DNA of 53,510 nucleotides, from positions 1 through 53,510 of the IMG/VR virus record IMGVR_UViG_3300031578_000047; one strand, given 5' to 3'. The translations under genes were made by a program, and so were the position numbers. This document shows positions 1,610 to 53,510 of this stretch, piece by piece (position 1 is the stretch's first letter; each line of letters opens with the position of its first letter). Under the pieces are notes generated by a model. It saw only the letters and a program-made list of their open reading frames with translations. It did not search any database and had not been told where the DNA came from. The stretch is from a virus.

Positions 1610-1876
1610 ATGAGCACGTTTAACACACTACTGCACGGATCCGCGGCTGACGCTGCGGGAATACTTGGGGGCGATAATGCGCCTTCGGACAACATGAGCC
1701 TGCGAGCTGCGCTTACCAACGCGCTAGACCGCATCGATATATTAGAGCGGAGACTCAACAGCAAGGGCAGGCCGGGTATCCGGCCGCCTGCTGAGTGTCG
1801 CGATTGCGGCACGATCTACACCAAGAAGGACATCGGCCAGACCTGCGGCGAGTGTCATCGTGGGGTGATCGAGTGA
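1610..1876 (+). CDS. zinc-ribbon-like small protein (88 aa)
   Basis: The protein has a helical N-terminal half (ALTNALDRIDILERRL, a likely short coiled coil) and a C-terminal ribbon with two cysteine pairs, CRDC and CGEC, about 17 residues apart. This fits a four-cysteine zinc ribbon. It starts three bases after the methyltransferase stop, so the two are co-transcribed. No enzymatic motif is present. A nucleic-acid or protein-binding accessory role is an inference. Confidence 0.65.
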   Translation: MSTFNTLLHGSAADAAGILGGDNAPSDNMSLRAALTNALDRIDILERRLNSKGRPGIRPPAECRDCGTIYTKKDIGQTCGECHRGVIE

Positions 1877-2070
1877 AGCCTAACGCTGCTGAGTACAACC
1901 CGGATCCGGATTACTTCTCTGATCTGGTGGCGTCGACTGGATTGACGCAGAAGGACCTGGCTAAGGTCATCGGTTGCACCGACCGGGCAATCCGGCAATG
2001 GTGCTCAGGACAGCGCAAGTTCAGCTATCAGACTCAGTTCACGCTTGAGGCGCTGGTGCTTGGTGTTTAG
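1873..2070 (+). CDS. small helix-turn-helix DNA-binding protein (65 aa)
   Basis: The segment LTQKDLAKVIGCTDRAIRQW (residues 24-43) matches the Xre/Cro-type helix-turn-helix: a helix, a turn at IGC, and a recognition helix starting TDRAI. The GTG start overlaps the preceding stop as GTGA, which decides the start over an upstream ATG in the same frame that lies inside the previous gene. It is probably a small phage transcription regulator. Its operator is unknown. Its TAG stop overlaps the TAA of the convergent minus-strand gene by two bases. Confidence 0.7.
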   Translation: MKPNAAEYNPDPDYFSDLVASTGLTQKDLAKVIGCTDRAIRQWCSGQRKFSYQTQFTLEALVLGV

Positions 2071-6413: not shown

Positions 6414-6940
6414 TCCTCGGTCTCCGTTTCGTCAGTCTTGACCGGCACCGACTCCATGCCCGGAGCAGCGTGGTACGACTGGATGTTGCCGTACTGATCC
6501 CGCATCTCCGGGTTGCCCGGATTGAAATGATGCTCCGTGCCGAGCGTGGACTTGCGCATTATGGAGTTGCGGAACACAAGGCCCACCATGTTCTGATGGT
6601 CCTCGACTCGCTTCTGCTCATAAGCCAGTGACATCTGCAGCACCTCGGCCTGAGACTCGCGATCCTGCAGCTCTGACTCGCGCGTGTGGTAGTGCGCTAA
6701 GTCGCTTTTGAGGTCTGCAATGGTGGTGGCCGCCGCATCATAGTTTCTCTCGATGGCCTTGAGCTCCTCCTCCAGATCTTTTTTGCCCTTGCGCAGCCAT
6801 TCGTTTGTGCTCTCGAGTGATGCGACCTCGTCCTTGAGGTGGAGAAACTGTTTCATAGCCTCGCCACTGAATGCCGCCTCTCCGCTCAGATCGAGGATGA
6901 TTTTGCTGATTTTCTCCATGTGGTTGTCGTTGTCCGCCAT
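6410..6940 (-). CDS. coiled-coil protein (176 aa)
   Basis: Residues ~30-120 are almost entirely heptad-like and charged (FLHLKDEVASLESTNEWLRK; KKDLEEELKAIERNYD; DLKSDLAHYHTRESELQDRE), giving a long coiled coil. The C-terminal 50 residues look disordered and acidic. No enzyme motif or membrane segment is present. It starts on the last base of the ParB-like gene, suggesting tight coupling with it. Confidence 0.6.
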   Translation of the reverse strand: MADNDNHMEKISKIILDLSGEAAFSGEAMKQFLHLKDEVASLESTNEWLRKGKKDLEEELKAIERNYDAAATTIADLKSDLAHYHTRESELQDRESQAEVLQMSLAYEQKRVEDHQNMVGLVFRNSIMRKSTLGTEHHFNPGNPEMRDQYGNIQSYHAAPGMESVPVKTDETETEE

Positions 6941-7653
6941 TACTTTCTCCTCATTACGAGCACAGCATGAGCCAGCCAGCTCGAGACATACTCAAAGTCA
7001 GCGACGTCATCCTTGTTTGGGTTTAGTTTCGTGACATCCCCGCCGCCGTATGGCAGCGCCTTGATTGCCGACATCGCCTGCCTGAGCTCCTCGAGCTCGG
7101 CTTCCTCCTGGGTAGGAGCCGGCCGCGTTGGGCGTACATCCTCTGGCTTCGGATCCACGGCCTTCCCGGGCTTGTTCTTGCCGCCCGGTTTGACGTCCTC
7201 GAGCATACGCTCACGCACGCGGCGAACAGTGTGGCGATTGACGCGGCACATATCGGCAATCTCCTGAACAGCCATCTGCGACACCTCCGGATCCTTGAGG
7301 GCCATCTCAACAACGTGGATCTTGTCGGCGTTGGTGCGGCGAGCTCCGTGCTCCGTGTTGGCGCCAAGGCAATACCGGAAGGCCGCGTGCAGGTCGCCGT
7401 CATGCAGCTCACACTTGACCTCTGTGATGTCGCACTCAACAAAGGCCTGCAGGCGTTGAAAACCATCGGCCAGAATATATCGCTCGCTATTCACCTCAGC
7501 GAACACCACCAGCGGCGGGAAAACCGCCCCGTTGTGTATGTCCTCGACGTACTGCGCGACGACATCAGGATCCAGTTTTTTACGCGACTGGGTAGCGGCG
7601 CTGGCGAGGATATTGTCCGCGGCCAGCGTGATGATCTTATGCTTCGACGACAT
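6940..7653 (-). CDS. ParB-like nuclease-fold DNA-binding protein
   Basis: Residues ~8-100 match the ParB/sulfiredoxin-like N-terminal domain, with ERYILADGFQRLQAF (57-71) in the place of the GxRRxxA box; the usual double arginine is reduced to one. A helix-turn-helix follows (MAVQEIADMCRVNRHTVRRV, ~127-146), then a proline/charged linker and a short C-terminal domain. No ParA partner is present, so this is unlikely to be a partition system. Phage proteins of this type are often regulators or DNA-processing factors. Its ATG lies inside the end of the upstream gene. Confidence 0.75.
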   Translation of the reverse strand: MSSKHKIITLAADNILASAATQSRKKLDPDVVAQYVEDIHNGAVFPPLVVFAEVNSERYILADGFQRLQAFVECDITEVKCELHDGDLHAAFRYCLGANTEHGARRTNADKIHVVEMALKDPEVSQMAVQEIADMCRVNRHTVRRVRERMLEDVKPGGKNKPGKAVDPKPEDVRPTRPAPTQEEAELEELRQAMSAIKALPYGGGDVTKLNPNKDDVADFEYVSSWLAHAVLVMRRK

Positions 7654-9347: not shown

Positions 9348-9366
9348 GTTACTCTCCTCGCGTTGG

Positions 9367-9519
9367 TTAAATCGGGATCTTCGCCTTCTTGGCCTGCTCA
9401 TGTAGATAGCGCCTAAACCACTCGGACTTGCTCAGTCCCTTGCGCTTGGCGAGCTGACTTAATGCCACCGACTCTTGTGGCGTAAGACGAACATCTATGT
9501 GCTTTGATTTTGTGTCCAT
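9367..9519 (-). CDS. ribbon-helix-helix (Arc/CopG-type) regulator, 50 aa
   Basis: A 50-residue protein with the size and pattern of Arc/MetJ/CopG repressors: a short beta strand (KHIDVRLTP, residues 6-14), helix A (ESVALSQLAKRKG) and helix B (SKSEWFRRYLHEQAKKA). Such proteins are dimers that place paired beta strands in the DNA major groove and bind tandem sites cooperatively. The ATG at 9519 has no Shine-Dalgarno; the predicted promoter places the transcript start within a few bases of the ATG, suggesting near-leaderless translation. Tandem 12-bp repeats in its promoter are the likely operator. It faces away from the recombination operon and may control both directions. Confidence 0.75.
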   Translation of the reverse strand: MDTKSKHIDVRLTPQESVALSQLAKRKGLSKSEWFRRYLHEQAKKAKIPI

Positions 9520-9521
9520 GG

Positions 9522-9556
9522 TGGTATACAGTACCGACAGTTGTACCGACAGTCAA
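9522..9556. promoter_or_regulatory. divergent promoters with tandem 12-bp operator repeats
   Basis: Minus strand: TTGACT (9556-9551), a 17-base spacer, then TACTGT (9533-9528), a fair sigma70-type promoter for the ribbon-helix-helix gene. Plus strand: TG-G-TATACA (9522-9530) is an extended -10 for the recombination operon. Two copies of GTACCGACAG (9531-9540, 9543-9552) repeat with a 12-bp period across the minus-strand spacer and the plus-strand start region. Binding there would block both promoters. This is sequence reading plus inference; no transcription start is known. Confidence 0.55.
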
Positions 9557-9579
9557 TAACCTACGCGAGGATAAAAACG

Positions 9580-10629
9580 ATGAACGAAAATTCAGATTTC
9601 ATACCTGATGACGGCGAAACCACAGAGGCCAAGCCGAAACCAATAGTGCGCTTCAACATCAATGACCAGCGCATCGCTGAGCTAAAAGAGGAGTGCAAGG
9701 ACGTCGATGCCTACAAGGACTTCGACGCCGCCAAGGAAGCCAAGTCAAAGCTCACCAAGATGCGCTCCGCTCTGACTGAGTCACACAAGACGGTCAAGGC
9801 TGATGCACTGGCGTACTGCCAGCTCGTCGACGGCGAGAAGCGCCGCCTGCTGGAGCTGATCGCAGAGATCGAGGACCCAATCACCAAGCAGCTCAAGGAG
9901 ATCAAAGAAAAAGCTGACCGTGAGGAGGCCGAGCGTGTCGCCGCTATCATGGGGCACATCGAGCAGATCCAAGCCTTCTCTCTGGATCGCCACAGCCTCA
10001 CCCTGGCTGAGCTCAACCAGCGGCTCGAGACCCTGCTGACTCTCGAGATCACCGAGGAGATCTACCAAGAGCACCTCGAGGACGCGGAGAACGCCAAGGT
10101 TGTAGCCGAATCCAAGCTGCGCATCGAGATCACCGCCGCCGAGGAGCGCGAGGCCGCCGCCAAGAGGGCCGCCGAGCAGGAGGAGGAGAACCGCGAGCTG
10201 CGCGAAAAAATGGCCGCCATGGAGGAGGAGCAGCGCAAGAAGGACGAGTTGGTTGCTAAGCAACAAGCCGAGCGCGATCGTGAGGCCGCCGAGCAGCTCC
10301 GCAAGGAGAACGAGAAGAAGCAGGCCGAGCTCGACAAACAGGCCAAGGAGCAGGCCGAAAAGCAGGCAGCCATTGACGCCGAGAACAAGCGCCTAGCTGA
10401 CGAGAAGGCCGAGGCCGACCGCAAGGCCGCCGAGGAGGAGGAAGCGGCTCTCAGGGCCATACAGGCGCCTGACAAGGACAAGATTGTCCTATTCGCTGAT
10501 GCCGTGGCACATCTCATCAAGGTCAAACCAACCCTGCAGTCGGATCTCGGCAACGAGATCATGCTAAACGCTGTAGCCAATCTAGTTGAGATCGAGCACG
10601 ACCTGCGTGCCCGGTCGGAGGAACTGTAA
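9580..10629 (+). CDS. DUF1351-like coiled-coil protein of the recombination operon
   Basis: Resembles phage DUF1351-type proteins, long helical proteins commonly encoded beside single-strand annealing proteins. Residues ~35-115 (for example DAAKEAKSKLTKMRSALTES) carry the family-like segment. Residues ~160-290 are a very regular Glu/Lys/Ala coiled coil. The C-terminus (~305-349) is a small helical domain. The ATG at 9580 follows GAGG in ACGCGAGGATAA and is chosen over an in-frame start at 9541, which lies within the operator repeats. It may act as a scaffold or partner for the ERF protein. The stop overlaps the next start (TAATG). Confidence 0.7.
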   Translation: MNENSDFIPDDGETTEAKPKPIVRFNINDQRIAELKEECKDVDAYKDFDAAKEAKSKLTKMRSALTESHKTVKADALAYCQLVDGEKRRLLELIAEIEDPITKQLKEIKEKADREEAERVAAIMGHIEQIQAFSLDRHSLTLAELNQRLETLLTLEITEEIYQEHLEDAENAKVVAESKLRIEITAAEEREAAAKRAAEQEEENRELREKMAAMEEEQRKKDELVAKQQAERDREAAEQLRKENEKKQAELDKQAKEQAEKQAAIDAENKRLADEKAEADRKAAEEEEAALRAIQAPDKDKIVLFADAVAHLIKVKPTLQSDLGNEIMLNAVANLVEIEHDLRARSEEL

Positions 10630-11381
10630 TGTCAGAAGAACAAGCAATCTACGCCGCGCGCTCCAATACGCCACTACTTGACGACCTTGTCCACAGAGTC
10701 AAGAACGTCGAGTCCCTTCTCACCAATCAGGCAGCGCCAGCTCCACAGCACGACAAGCTGTTCGCCGCGCTGGCCATAGCTCAGGGCCAGATCCAGTCCG
10801 CTATCGCTGACAAGGAGAACAAGCACTTCAACTTCAAGTACGCGGATCTCGATGCCTGTTGGGATGCCTGCCGCAAGCCGCTGTCTGAGAACGAGCTCGC
10901 GGTCGTGCAGCTCCCATCGGTCGGCCCGGACGGTGCCGTCACAGTCAAGACTATCCTCGGCCACAGCTCCGGGCAGTCGATCTCCTGCACGTACACGATG
11001 CACCCGGAGAAGTCCGGGCCCCAAGCCCTCGGCTCCTGCATCACATACCTGCGGCGCTACACGCTCTGCCCGCTGGTCGGCATTAGCCAGGAGGATGACG
11101 ATGCCAACATGGCCACCAAGGATCCAAGCGAGTACACGCGAATCACCAAGATCCAGATGAACGAGATCCTGTTGCTGGCCAACAAGCTGTTCGGTGATCG
11201 CGAGGACGAGGTTCTTGACCGGATGCTGCAAAAGCTGTTCGAGGGCTGCGCCATCAGCGACCTGCCGGCCGACAACTACGATCAAGTGGTCGGGCTGCTT
11301 AACAATCAGGCCAAGCGTGAGGCGGCACAGGCGCAGAAGAAAGCAGAGAAGGAGGCGGACGAGCCAGCCGCCAAGAAGTAA
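10629..11381 (+). CDS. ERF-family single-strand annealing recombinase
   Basis: Matches the ERF superfamily of phage annealing proteins, which pair complementary single strands in RecA-independent recombination. Key segments are FKYADLDACWDACRKPLSEN (residues ~58-77) and the later GSCITYLRRYTLCPLVGI (~136-153), the family's characteristic (S/A)xxTYxxRY(A/T)L signature. The C-terminal ~60 residues are charged and probably mediate partner binding. The YqaJ-type exonuclease gene follows immediately, giving the usual exonuclease/annealing pair. It starts on the last base of the upstream stop. Confidence 0.88.
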   Translation: MSEEQAIYAARSNTPLLDDLVHRVKNVESLLTNQAAPAPQHDKLFAALAIAQGQIQSAIADKENKHFNFKYADLDACWDACRKPLSENELAVVQLPSVGPDGAVTVKTILGHSSGQSISCTYTMHPEKSGPQALGSCITYLRRYTLCPLVGISQEDDDANMATKDPSEYTRITKIQMNEILLLANKLFGDREDEVLDRMLQKLFEGCAISDLPADNYDQVVGLLNNQAKREAAQAQKKAEKEADEPAAKK

Positions 11382-12044
11382 ATGGACTGCCGCATTATCC
11401 GAGTCGAGCAGGGATCTGACGAGTGGCTGGCACTACGCCGCTCGCGGATCACCGCCTCGAGACTGGGCGATGTCATGGCCAAGCCAGACACCAAGCGATA
11501 CCAGAAGTATCGCCGGGAGAAGGTGCTGGAGCTCCTCGGCAACGAGAACGTCGAGGAGACTCCAGAGTGGGCCAGACACGGCCGGGAGAACGAGGACAAG
11601 GCCATCGCCGGCTACGAGTACAAGTACGAGGTCGACGTCGAGCACAATGTCTTTATGATCTCAAAGAAGTACGACTGGCTGGCGGCAAGCCCAGACATGC
11701 TGCAGATTGCACCCGAGGCTGAGGAGGAGTTCGATCAGGGCGCGGAGATCAAGTGCCGCGCGCTGTACAAGAACTACAAGGCGGCCCGGGCGCTGGCGGT
11801 CGACAAGAAGGGCTCGATAGCGGCTTGTCCAGCCTGCGATCGGCACCAAGTCCAAGGCAACATATGGGTATCAGGGTGGCGCTTCTGGTGGTACGTGAAC
11901 TACTACATCGGTGACGATCTCGAGGGTGGCTTGGTGAACAAGATCCATCGCGTCGGGATCCCGCGCGATCAGAAGTTGATCGACCAGATGGAGGTCAGAT
12001 GCCTGCAGTTTATGAAAGAATGCTACGAGCTTGCTGGCATGTAG
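11382..12044 (+). CDS. YqaJ/lambda-exonuclease-type recombinase nuclease
   Basis: A YqaJ-family PD-(D/E)xK exonuclease that would resect double-stranded ends to give single strands for ERF. Motifs are seen in order: WLALRRSRITASRLGDVM near the N-terminus (residues 14-31), ARHGRENE (67-74) with the first acidic residue, AASPDM (~100-105) supplying the aspartate, AEIKCR (~121-126) with the E-x-K, and HQVQGNIWVSG (~155-165). A CxxC pair (CPAC) precedes the last motif. At 220 residues it is close to lambda exonuclease in length. The ATG follows the ERF stop codon directly. Confidence 0.88.
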   Translation: MDCRIIRVEQGSDEWLALRRSRITASRLGDVMAKPDTKRYQKYRREKVLELLGNENVEETPEWARHGRENEDKAIAGYEYKYEVDVEHNVFMISKKYDWLAASPDMLQIAPEAEEEFDQGAEIKCRALYKNYKAARALAVDKKGSIAACPACDRHQVQGNIWVSGWRFWWYVNYYIGDDLEGGLVNKIHRVGIPRDQKLIDQMEVRCLQFMKECYELAGM

Positions 12045-12529: not shown

Positions 12530-12555
12530 AGGCGCCAGCAATGGCGCCTTTTTTT
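12530..12555 (+). terminator. rho-independent terminator of the recombination operon
   Basis: A perfect 8-bp stem, AGGCGCCA (12530-12537) with TGGCGCCT (12542-12549), and a GCAA tetraloop, followed by seven T residues (12549-12555). It separates the plus-strand recombination operon from the convergent end of the late minus-strand block. On the minus strand the hairpin is not followed by T residues, so it should act in one direction only. Confidence 0.85.
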
Positions 12556-13032: not shown

Positions 13033-13966
13033 CCTTGGACCCCTTCTCGTTCAGTCGCTTGTTGATGGCTGCGCGACGAGCTGCCTCAGCCTCCTGTTTT
13101 TTTCTCAGCTCCTCGGCCTCTGCCTTCAGTCGCGCCAGCTCAGCGTCATTGGCTTCACGCTCTGCCTTGATGGAGTCGAGCTGGTTCTGCTGCTGCGCGA
13201 AACGGCGCTCTTGCTGCTCAAGATAATCCTCGAGCTCCTCCTTCTGCACAGCCTGGGCAGTCAGCTCGTTGTACTCCTCCTCCCAAACCACGACCGCGCC
13301 GGCAGGGATAACTGGCTCCGCTGGTGGTGGCGCCGCTGCTGGCACAGGTGCGATGTGTGCCATGTCTACCTTCATCGTGCGGTTGCCACCAAACTCGAAG
13401 CCGAACGATCCCTGAATGGCCGTGTCGCCTCCAGCCCTACCAACACCAACAGTCAGCGCCGTGTTGCTGTCGTTGTCCAGCATGTAGGCAAAGCCCATGC
13501 CGAAGCCTGTCCTATTGCCGACGCGACTGGCGCCAAAGGTAAGGCGAGATGTCTGGTCTTGCGGCAAGTGAACCTGTATGGCCTGCGTTGCTGCAAGATA
13601 ATTTCTGCTCTCGTCGTACAGCTTGTTGACGTTGGTGATCCACTCTGTCGGAACCTCGCCGGCAGGACCTCGCTCTCCTTGTGGCCCGCGCTCACCCTGC
13701 TCACCCTGCGGACCTTGCGGACCTTGCGGGCCCGGAGGGCCTTGCTCACCCGGAGGGCCTTGCTCACCCGGAGGGCCCTGCTCACCAGGAGGGCCTTGCG
13801 GGCCCGGAGGGCCTTCGCCGCCGCAACCGTGCTCAATGAACCGAGGGTGCTCACAGTCGCCGTGCTCCTCACCGCCAGTCGCATTCGCTCTCTGCATGAA
13901 CATCACAAAGCAGGCAAGCACAAGCAGGCCAGCCAGCGTTAAATTGATTTTGTGGTGGGTTTTCAT
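13022..13966 (-). CDS. exported collagen-like protein with YadA-like beta domain and coiled coil
   Basis: Four parts are visible. Residues 1-29 are a signal peptide ending ANA. Residues 53-106 are 18 uninterrupted Gly-X-Y triplets, rich in GPP, GPQ, GEQ and GER, as in bacterial and phage collagen-like triple helices. Residues ~125-195 ([20 protein letters not shown] ... [10 protein letters not shown] ... SFGFEFGG) look like YadA-type outer-membrane anchor strands. Residues ~230-300 are a charged coiled coil. Two cysteines (C38, C48) precede the collagen tract. A trimeric envelope-exported protein is inferred. It lies directly after the lipobox spanin-like gene (ATGA overlap). It may alter the host surface or aid lysis; it could instead be a virion fibre, but the signal peptide argues against that. 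Confidence 0.7.
13655..13813 (-). repeat. Gly-X-Y coding tandem repeat
   Basis: The collagen-like tract is encoded by degenerate 9- and 18-base repeats. On the plus strand the unit GGAGGGCCTTGCTCACCC recurs almost exactly from about 13735 to 13790. Such repeats can expand or contract by slippage, so the number of triplets may vary between isolates. Confidence 0.75.
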
Positions 13967-53371: not shown

Positions 53372-53510
53372 TTAGTCTGCAATGGATGTGTCCGGCGATT
53401 CGGGCCATTCGGGCTCTGTCGGTACAAGGCTCGATTCGCCCTCAATGACTGCCCCGGCTGCCTGATCCTCCAGCATGAACAGGGCGAGGCGCCGCATTTT
53501 CTCCCGGTCT
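53372..53510 (-). CDS. hypothetical acidic protein, possibly cut by the window edge
   Basis: A reading frame continues to the window edge and ends at TAA (53374-53372). An internal ATG at 53497 with GGGAG upstream would give a complete 41-residue acidic protein beginning MRRLALFMLEDQ, so it may or may not be truncated. Its C-terminal half is Glu/Pro-rich. The codons for LVPTE contain the GTACCGACAG box. Function unknown. Confidence 0.45.
   Translation of the reverse strand, partial: DREKMRRLALFMLEDQAAGAVIEGESSLVPTEPEWPESPDTSIAD

Follow-up and report, generated by a model that had tools for sequence, protein, structure and literature searches.

The locus studied here lies in the complete record of an uncultured virus, 53,510 bases long, the whole of which was analysed and is referred to as the window. 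The record encodes podovirus-type proteins, namely a portal, tail tubular proteins and a terminase, and its portal is only ~25% identical to the portals of marine podoviruses in the isolate collection. Two gene runs diverge from the short region considered below. On the plus strand, the first gene (9580–10629) specifies a coiled-coil protein (PHROG 16469) whose position is kept in the nearer relatives; its Shine–Dalgarno sequence is GAGGA (9567–9571, plus; TACGCGAGGA conserved in many relatives). It is followed by genes for an Erf-type single-strand annealing protein (10629–11381, plus; Pfam ERF, 76 bits) and a YqaJ-type exonuclease (11382–12044, plus; Pfam YqaJ, 66 bits). A terminator-like hairpin after this recombination operon (12530–12549, plus) is the strongest stem in the region, where such sites number 8 against 7.3 expected by chance. 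The minus-strand run is headed by a small ribbon-helix-helix (RHH) gene and comprises early-type genes, including those of a ParB-like protein (6940–7653) and a helicase. No integrase (PF00589) was found in the window or in eight relatives, so that control of lytic early genes appears more likely than a lysogeny switch. A YqaJ profile search of bacterial genomes gave no match and hence no evidence for prophages. A DNA-level search in isolated phages and a search with the protein of the first plus-strand gene were likewise without a match.

Several other features were noticed along the record. The sequence ACGCGAGGA stands at 9563–9571 (plus), before the first plus-strand gene, as it does in nearly all relatives, and again at 9355–9363 (minus), where it precedes the window's second minus-strand gene; it is conserved beyond the needs of a plain Shine–Dalgarno sequence. 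A small helix-turn-helix gene (HTH_3) at ~1873–2070 (plus), also found in related phages, may encode a second regulator. A DNA methyltransferase-like gene (533–1606, plus) finds its best matches in segments of very large phage proteins, PHROG 15406 among them, and tandem 9- and 18-bp repeats occur at 13690–13800, within a collagen-like tail-fibre gene.

The gene at the head of the minus-strand run (9367–9519, minus) encodes a putative RHH repressor of 50 residues and adjoins a tandem repeat, as the earlier note had claimed. Both of its Pfam scores exceed the cut-offs (RHH_1, 21.1 bits for a cut-off of 20.5; NikA-like, 33.4 bits for a cut-off of 27), its PHROG match is an Arc-like repressor, and the gene is recognized in relatives as well. 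In the model of the monomer (pLDDT 86.7), helices span residues 14–27 and 31–45; the β-strand, which requires the dimer, is not called. The nearest solved fold is that of Arc (TM-score 0.83, sequence identity ~17%). The bases of the Arc operator are contacted by Gln9, Asn11 and Arg13 (PMC12645479), and these residues are predicted, from the sequence pattern, to correspond to H7, D9 and R11 here. Searching isolated phages with the RHH protein returned weak hits only. A toxin–antitoxin locus was considered and rejected: the polypeptide ends directly after the RHH core and is devoid of a toxin-binding tail, and the next genes have no toxin match in Pfam or PHROGs.

The 12-bp head-to-tail repeat beside this gene proved exact. 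The sequence GTACCGACAGT on the plus strand, which is ACTGTCGGTAC on the minus strand, occurs at 9531–9541 and 9543–9553 with a period of 12, and the minus strand from 9553 to 9531 thus reads ACTGTCGGTAC-A-ACTGTCGGTAC, two copies of 11 bp. This is the only exact period-12 repeat of at least 10 bp in the 53.5-kb window, and the 11-mer does not recur there. It also exceeds what is expected from shuffled and Markov sequences: a first-order Markov model fitted to the window yielded zero period-12 repeats of at least 11 bp in 60 simulations (0.2 per window for periods 9–20 taken together), and its level was reached in 0 of 2000 dinucleotide shuffles of the 45-bp upstream region. The repeat is better described as a pair of pseudo-palindromic half-sites that abut. 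The units TGTCGGTACA, TGTCATTACA, TGTCCTGACA and TGTCAGTACA are all TGT-N4-ACA pseudo-palindromes, so the site consists of two abutting 12-bp half-sites and is more than a direct repeat; as expected, such a unit fits a two-fold RHH dimer. The putative operator (9529–9552, minus) is accordingly made of CTGTCGGTACAA (9552–9541) and CTGTCGGTACTG (9540–9529), the second of which has a terminal ACT in place of ACA. It would lie within the 17-bp spacer of the RHH gene's own promoter and extend into the −10 element. A third unit was discarded: ACTGT recurs at 9532–9528, but at a 10-bp step and as part of the −10. The near-copy TCTGTCGGTAC at 53415 was also set aside, being single and non-tandem in a window whose near-copy total is within chance. 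Scanning viral contigs for the exact operator gave zero matches outside the window; relatives retain the layout and not the letters.

Promoter-like elements flank and overlap the repeat on both strands. The minus promoter TTGACT-N17-TACTGT of the earlier note was correctly identified, with its −35 at 9556–9551 and its −10 at 9533–9528, that is 8 nt before the ATG of the RHH gene; the TTG occupies the same place in most relatives, with spacers of 17–18, and transcription is predicted to start near 9521–9519. The plus-strand motif TGgTATACA of that note is indeed present at 9522–9530, but the conserved −10 on that strand is TACAGT, one register over. The plus −10 is therefore probably TACAGT (9527–9532, plus), paired with the −35 TTGATT (9504–9509, plus) inside the RHH gene and with a predicted start at 9539; the TATACA register is possible. 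TTGATT aligns with TTGTCT in four relatives (L010, L009, L012 and L014), where the plus hexamers are found in the same place as TTGTCT-17-TATAGT (two phages), TTGTCT-17-TACAGT and TTGTCT-18-TAGAAT. Overlapping promoters are also seen in the nearer relatives. The minus −10 and the plus −10 have the symmetric TACAGTA in common, and the predicted starts at 9521 (minus) and 9539 (plus) are 18 bp apart. Reciprocal pairing of −7T with −11A is seen in the window (T9532/A9528 for the plus promoter, T9528/A9532 for the minus promoter) and in the same four relatives, and −18T, another position of bidirectional promoters, is seen on the minus strand only. In bacteria, a separation of 18 bp between starts, together with reciprocal pairing of positions −7 and −11, is the commonest geometry of bidirectional promoters (PMC10268837, PMC12825309). 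The two promoters may thus be regarded as one symmetric bidirectional promoter. Each of them matches the consensus at 8 of 12 positions, below the scan threshold of 9, and went unlisted by the scan; their support is consequently conservation and not match quality.

The distance from the minus −10 to the ATG is 6–8 nt in the window and the nearer relatives, mostly without a Shine–Dalgarno sequence, although sequences of that kind precede the RHH gene in L021, L028 and L025. Such spacing suggests that the RHH mRNA is probably leaderless or, in the predicted reading, provided with a leader of ~1–2 nt.

The YqaJ profile gathered 24 loci whose YqaJ proteins are 51–76% identical. Fourteen RHH proteins of syntenic relatives were aligned, and 11 loci were left once near-duplicates were removed. 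Where the upstream sequence sufficed, the RHH profile found the gene divergent to the recombination operon, except in L017, L031 and L032. The order RHH gene, at least one leading gene, Erf-like gene and YqaJ gene is retained in the 12 loci examined, the leading gene of the plus operon being different in more distant loci and absent from some. On the RHH strand, the window reads TTGAC-TGTCGGTACAACTGTCGGTACTGTATACCACC-ATG, and the corresponding stretches are TTGACTTGTCATTACAAGTGTCATTACTATAGGGCCC-ATG in L010, TTGACTGTGTTTACAAACGTGTTTACTGTAGCCCGT-ATG in L012, TTGCTTGTCAGTACAAGTGTCAGTACATTATGCCT-ATG in L015 and TTGATTGTCCTGACATTTGTCAGTACAGTCAAGGGC-ATG in L018. Among these five phages the letters vary, while the 12-bp step, the position between the −35 and −10 elements and the closeness to the ATG are constant. 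The self-similarity summed at offset 12 over the 11 non-redundant loci amounts to 76, compared with a mean of 45 and a maximum of 60 over all offsets in 1000 shuffles. As controls, the segment 50–95 bp upstream gave no peak, and the RHH coding segment gave a weak one at offset 7 only. The 12-bp step is absent from some loci: it is 11 bp in L020 and 20 bp in L021 and L028, and L025 shows no clear step. In a branch formed by L021, L028 and L029, the operator is rearranged, with TGTCCATAC sites at 20-bp spacing and an inverted TATGGACA upstream of the RHH gene. In records that have the strict site, it occurs once per genome, at the RHH locus; in L020 and L033, an unrelated repeat matches at another place.

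The two copies change in concert. Had they been unrelated remnants, each would be as similar to the opposite copy of another phage as to its own partner. Within a phage they share 7.75 of 9 letters, compared with 5.8 when copies are re-paired among the eight phages, and exact permutation gives p values of 1.5e-4 (eight phages), 1.2e-3 (seven) and 2.8e-3 (six). Copies would be alike within each phage because a single DNA-binding protein selects two equal sites, and the layout kept in syntenic relatives together with this concerted change of letters points to the repeat being an operator.

The letters of the site also appear to vary with those residues of the RHH strand that are predicted to contact DNA. 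When residues 7-9-11 are H-D-R, the start-proximal site is TGTCGGTAC; P-Q-R goes with TGTCATTAC (the site of L010), Q-H-R with TGTGTATTC and CGTGTTTAC, K-Q-R with TGTCAGTAC or TGTCCATAC, and F-Q-R with TGTCAGTAC; the site of L014 and L012 is TGTGT. Site similarity correlates with this residue triple (Mantel r 0.58, p 0.007), also after removal of overall protein similarity (partial Mantel p 0.0095), and not with the remainder of the RHH protein (r 0.08, p 0.33). Without the outlier L026, residue 9 is the best single correlate among the positions tested (r 0.63) and the 7/9/11 triple ranks 103rd of 15,170. Since these relationships come from 9–10 loci, with the register set by eye and the contact residues placed by analogy with Arc, the evidence is good, though short of conclusive, that site letters track the contact residues as opposed to the remainder of the protein. 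Taken together, the conserved layout and the coordinated change of site and protein make the predicted switch much more credible.

The layout was further used as a blind search pattern, TTGAN{1,2}TGTNNNNACNNNTGTNNNNACNNTN{6,8}ATG, which was run against all viral contigs with the same pattern at a 13-bp step as control. With the 12-bp step, 25 loci matched. The ATG of the pattern starts an RHH gene of the window's family in L076, L078, L079, L082, L092 and L097, and a different protein of 48–49 residues (MVKQPMV...) in L084, L088 and L098. The latter three are phages unrelated to the one studied here, with tandem 12-bp sites and an almost leaderless start, and their protein gives weak RHH matches alone, under the curated cut-offs (E 5e-4 to 0.024). 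Except for L077, the remaining hits are chance-like, and several are copies of one coding sequence. In L077 (4714–4753, minus), the pattern precedes a helix-turn-helix gene (HTH_31), possibly by chance. The 13-bp control matched 8 loci and opened 0 RHH genes. Because RHH or RHH-like genes were found with the 12-bp pattern and none with the control, the layout points to RHH genes in unrelated phages. For the second RHH family, the gene context of its relatives in the isolated phages MrSmee and GMA1 added nothing.

Tandem operators of this type are known from the relBE system. In E. coli, relO is formed by TTGTAATGACAT and, directly after it, TTGTAATTACAA; two RelB dimers occupy these half-sites from the same face of the DNA, and repression is abolished by a 2- or 10-bp insertion between them. 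The operator lies at −10 to +17 of the promoter that RelB represses as its own, RelB being an antitoxin that has both a toxin-binding part and a co-repressor (PMC2812701). Both sites are composed of two abutting 12-bp pseudo-palindromes with TGT/ACA arms, and identity to relO is 21/24 bases in L010, 19/24 in L015 and L018 and 15/24 in the window. This resemblance is taken here to mean that both proteins arrived at the same solution by way of the same strand arginine. However, the phage site is predicted in the −35/−10 spacer, the protein is a bare 50-aa RHH module with no toxin found, and the promoter would be bidirectional, a feature that is not reported for relBE in PMC2812701.

The Arc repressor of phage P22 offers a second comparison, as a phage RHH protein of ~50 residues that has the nearest solved fold and touches its bases from strand positions equivalent to those predicted here. 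The arc operator is likewise situated within the spacer of the gene's own promoter, P-ant, with a divergent promoter beside it, and its half-sites are at 11-bp spacing. An operator inside the promoter of its own gene, as predicted here, is thus shared with the Arc-type repressor, but Arc has TAGA-type inverted half-sites, whereas TGT-N4-ACA half-sites are repeated at 12 bp in the phage studied. Arc binds its 21-bp operator as a dimer of dimers (PMC12645479). With regard to the promoter, the symmetric −10 and the 18-bp separation of predicted starts recall bacterial bidirectional promoters (Warman et al. 2021; PMC10268837, PMC12825309), with the difference that both directions serve protein operons here and that the predicted operator is built in. 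Among plasmid proteins, ArtA of pSK41 and MobC of RA3 are also small RHH repressors controlling their own and neighbouring genes (PMC4175270); unlike ArtA, with six binding sites on its plasmid, a single operator is predicted here at one locus.

From these data, the site is quite likely the operator of the adjacent RHH repressor, set within a symmetric bidirectional promoter where two dimers would bind cooperatively and shut off both directions. The sequences themselves show the repeat, the gene order and the promoter geometry, each with its conservation, as well as the concerted change of both half-sites and the covariation with recognition residues. In the course of events that we infer, repressor binding, cooperativity, start sites, repression and timing are all predicted features. 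RNA polymerase would bind a sigma-70-type promoter in either of two overlapping orientations that have TACAGTA/TACTGTA as common −10, transcribing leftward into the RHH-led operon or rightward into the Erf–YqaJ operon. The RHH mRNA would be translated without a leader or almost so and, as the protein builds up, one dimer per 12-bp half-site would set its β-ribbon into the major groove. Because the half-sites abut and lie roughly one turn of the helix from each other, neighbouring dimers are proposed to act cooperatively, a proposal for which the conserved 12-bp step offers indirect support. On the RHH promoter, the dimers would mask the −35/−10 spacer and a portion of the −10; on the recombination promoter, they would mask the −10 together with the start region. 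Both directions would thereby be switched off, and the early pulse would limit itself. The compact autoregulated switch for early and recombination operons imagined in the earlier note is thus supported, with gene, operator and divergent operon found together in 12 relatives and the 12-bp layout in most of them.

Other readings of the site were weighed. The operator could serve the RHH direction alone, as in simple autorepression, with the plus operon driven from elsewhere or unrepressed. The RHH-side promoter is indeed the better conserved (TTGNNN-17/18-TANNNT in most relatives), and the 18-bp plus partner is weak (GACTGT) in L018 and L023. Against this, the window, L010, L009, L012 and L014 retain the plus hexamers in the same register, the site sits where a plus start would be blocked, and every relative examined has the two operons in divergent order, which leaves one-sided control a rather unlikely explanation.

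The closeness of the L010, L015 and L018 operators to relO raises the idea that another regulator binds the site, for example a host RelB-like antitoxin exploited or mimicked by the phage. This seems very improbable, given that the letters of the site drift with the strand residues of the phage RHH protein, that the window site matches relO at only 15 of 24 bases and that the RHH gene always adjoins the site. Similarly, the NikA-like family being the top Pfam hit and the presence of a ParB-like gene further left could suggest a nucleoprotein machine, in which the RHH protein would be a partition or mobilisation accessory and the repeats a centromere- or oriT-like site. Only two repeat units exist, however, exactly inside a promoter and with kept spacing, the protein stops after its RHH core and no relaxase match was obtained among the genes scanned; a role of this kind is given hardly any weight. 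Repression of both directions by the adjacent RHH protein thus stays the preferred reading.

A mechanism of a known kind is well supported, namely an RHH autorepressor acting on a relO-type operator, here within a bidirectional promoter of phages that have been little studied and have no close relatives among the isolates searched. An unannotated phage protein of 50 residues would thereby be tied to a precise DNA site and two operons, in a two-way switch that packs a symmetric promoter, a built-in tandem operator and an almost leaderless repressor into ~60 bp. This layout can be searched as a DNA pattern, by which another type of small RHH-like gene has already come to light in phages unrelated to this one. 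The relatives constitute a ready series for asking which base is read by each RHH strand residue, something that is usually addressed for single proteins. More tentatively, this podovirus group may run its early expression from the bidirectional promoter, with RHH protein and two-copy operator changing together into mutually blind pairs, like immunity groups. If this conjecture is true, the locus would supply a natural series in which RHH proteins are matched to their sites, and the code of DNA reading by β-ribbon repressors could be derived from it.
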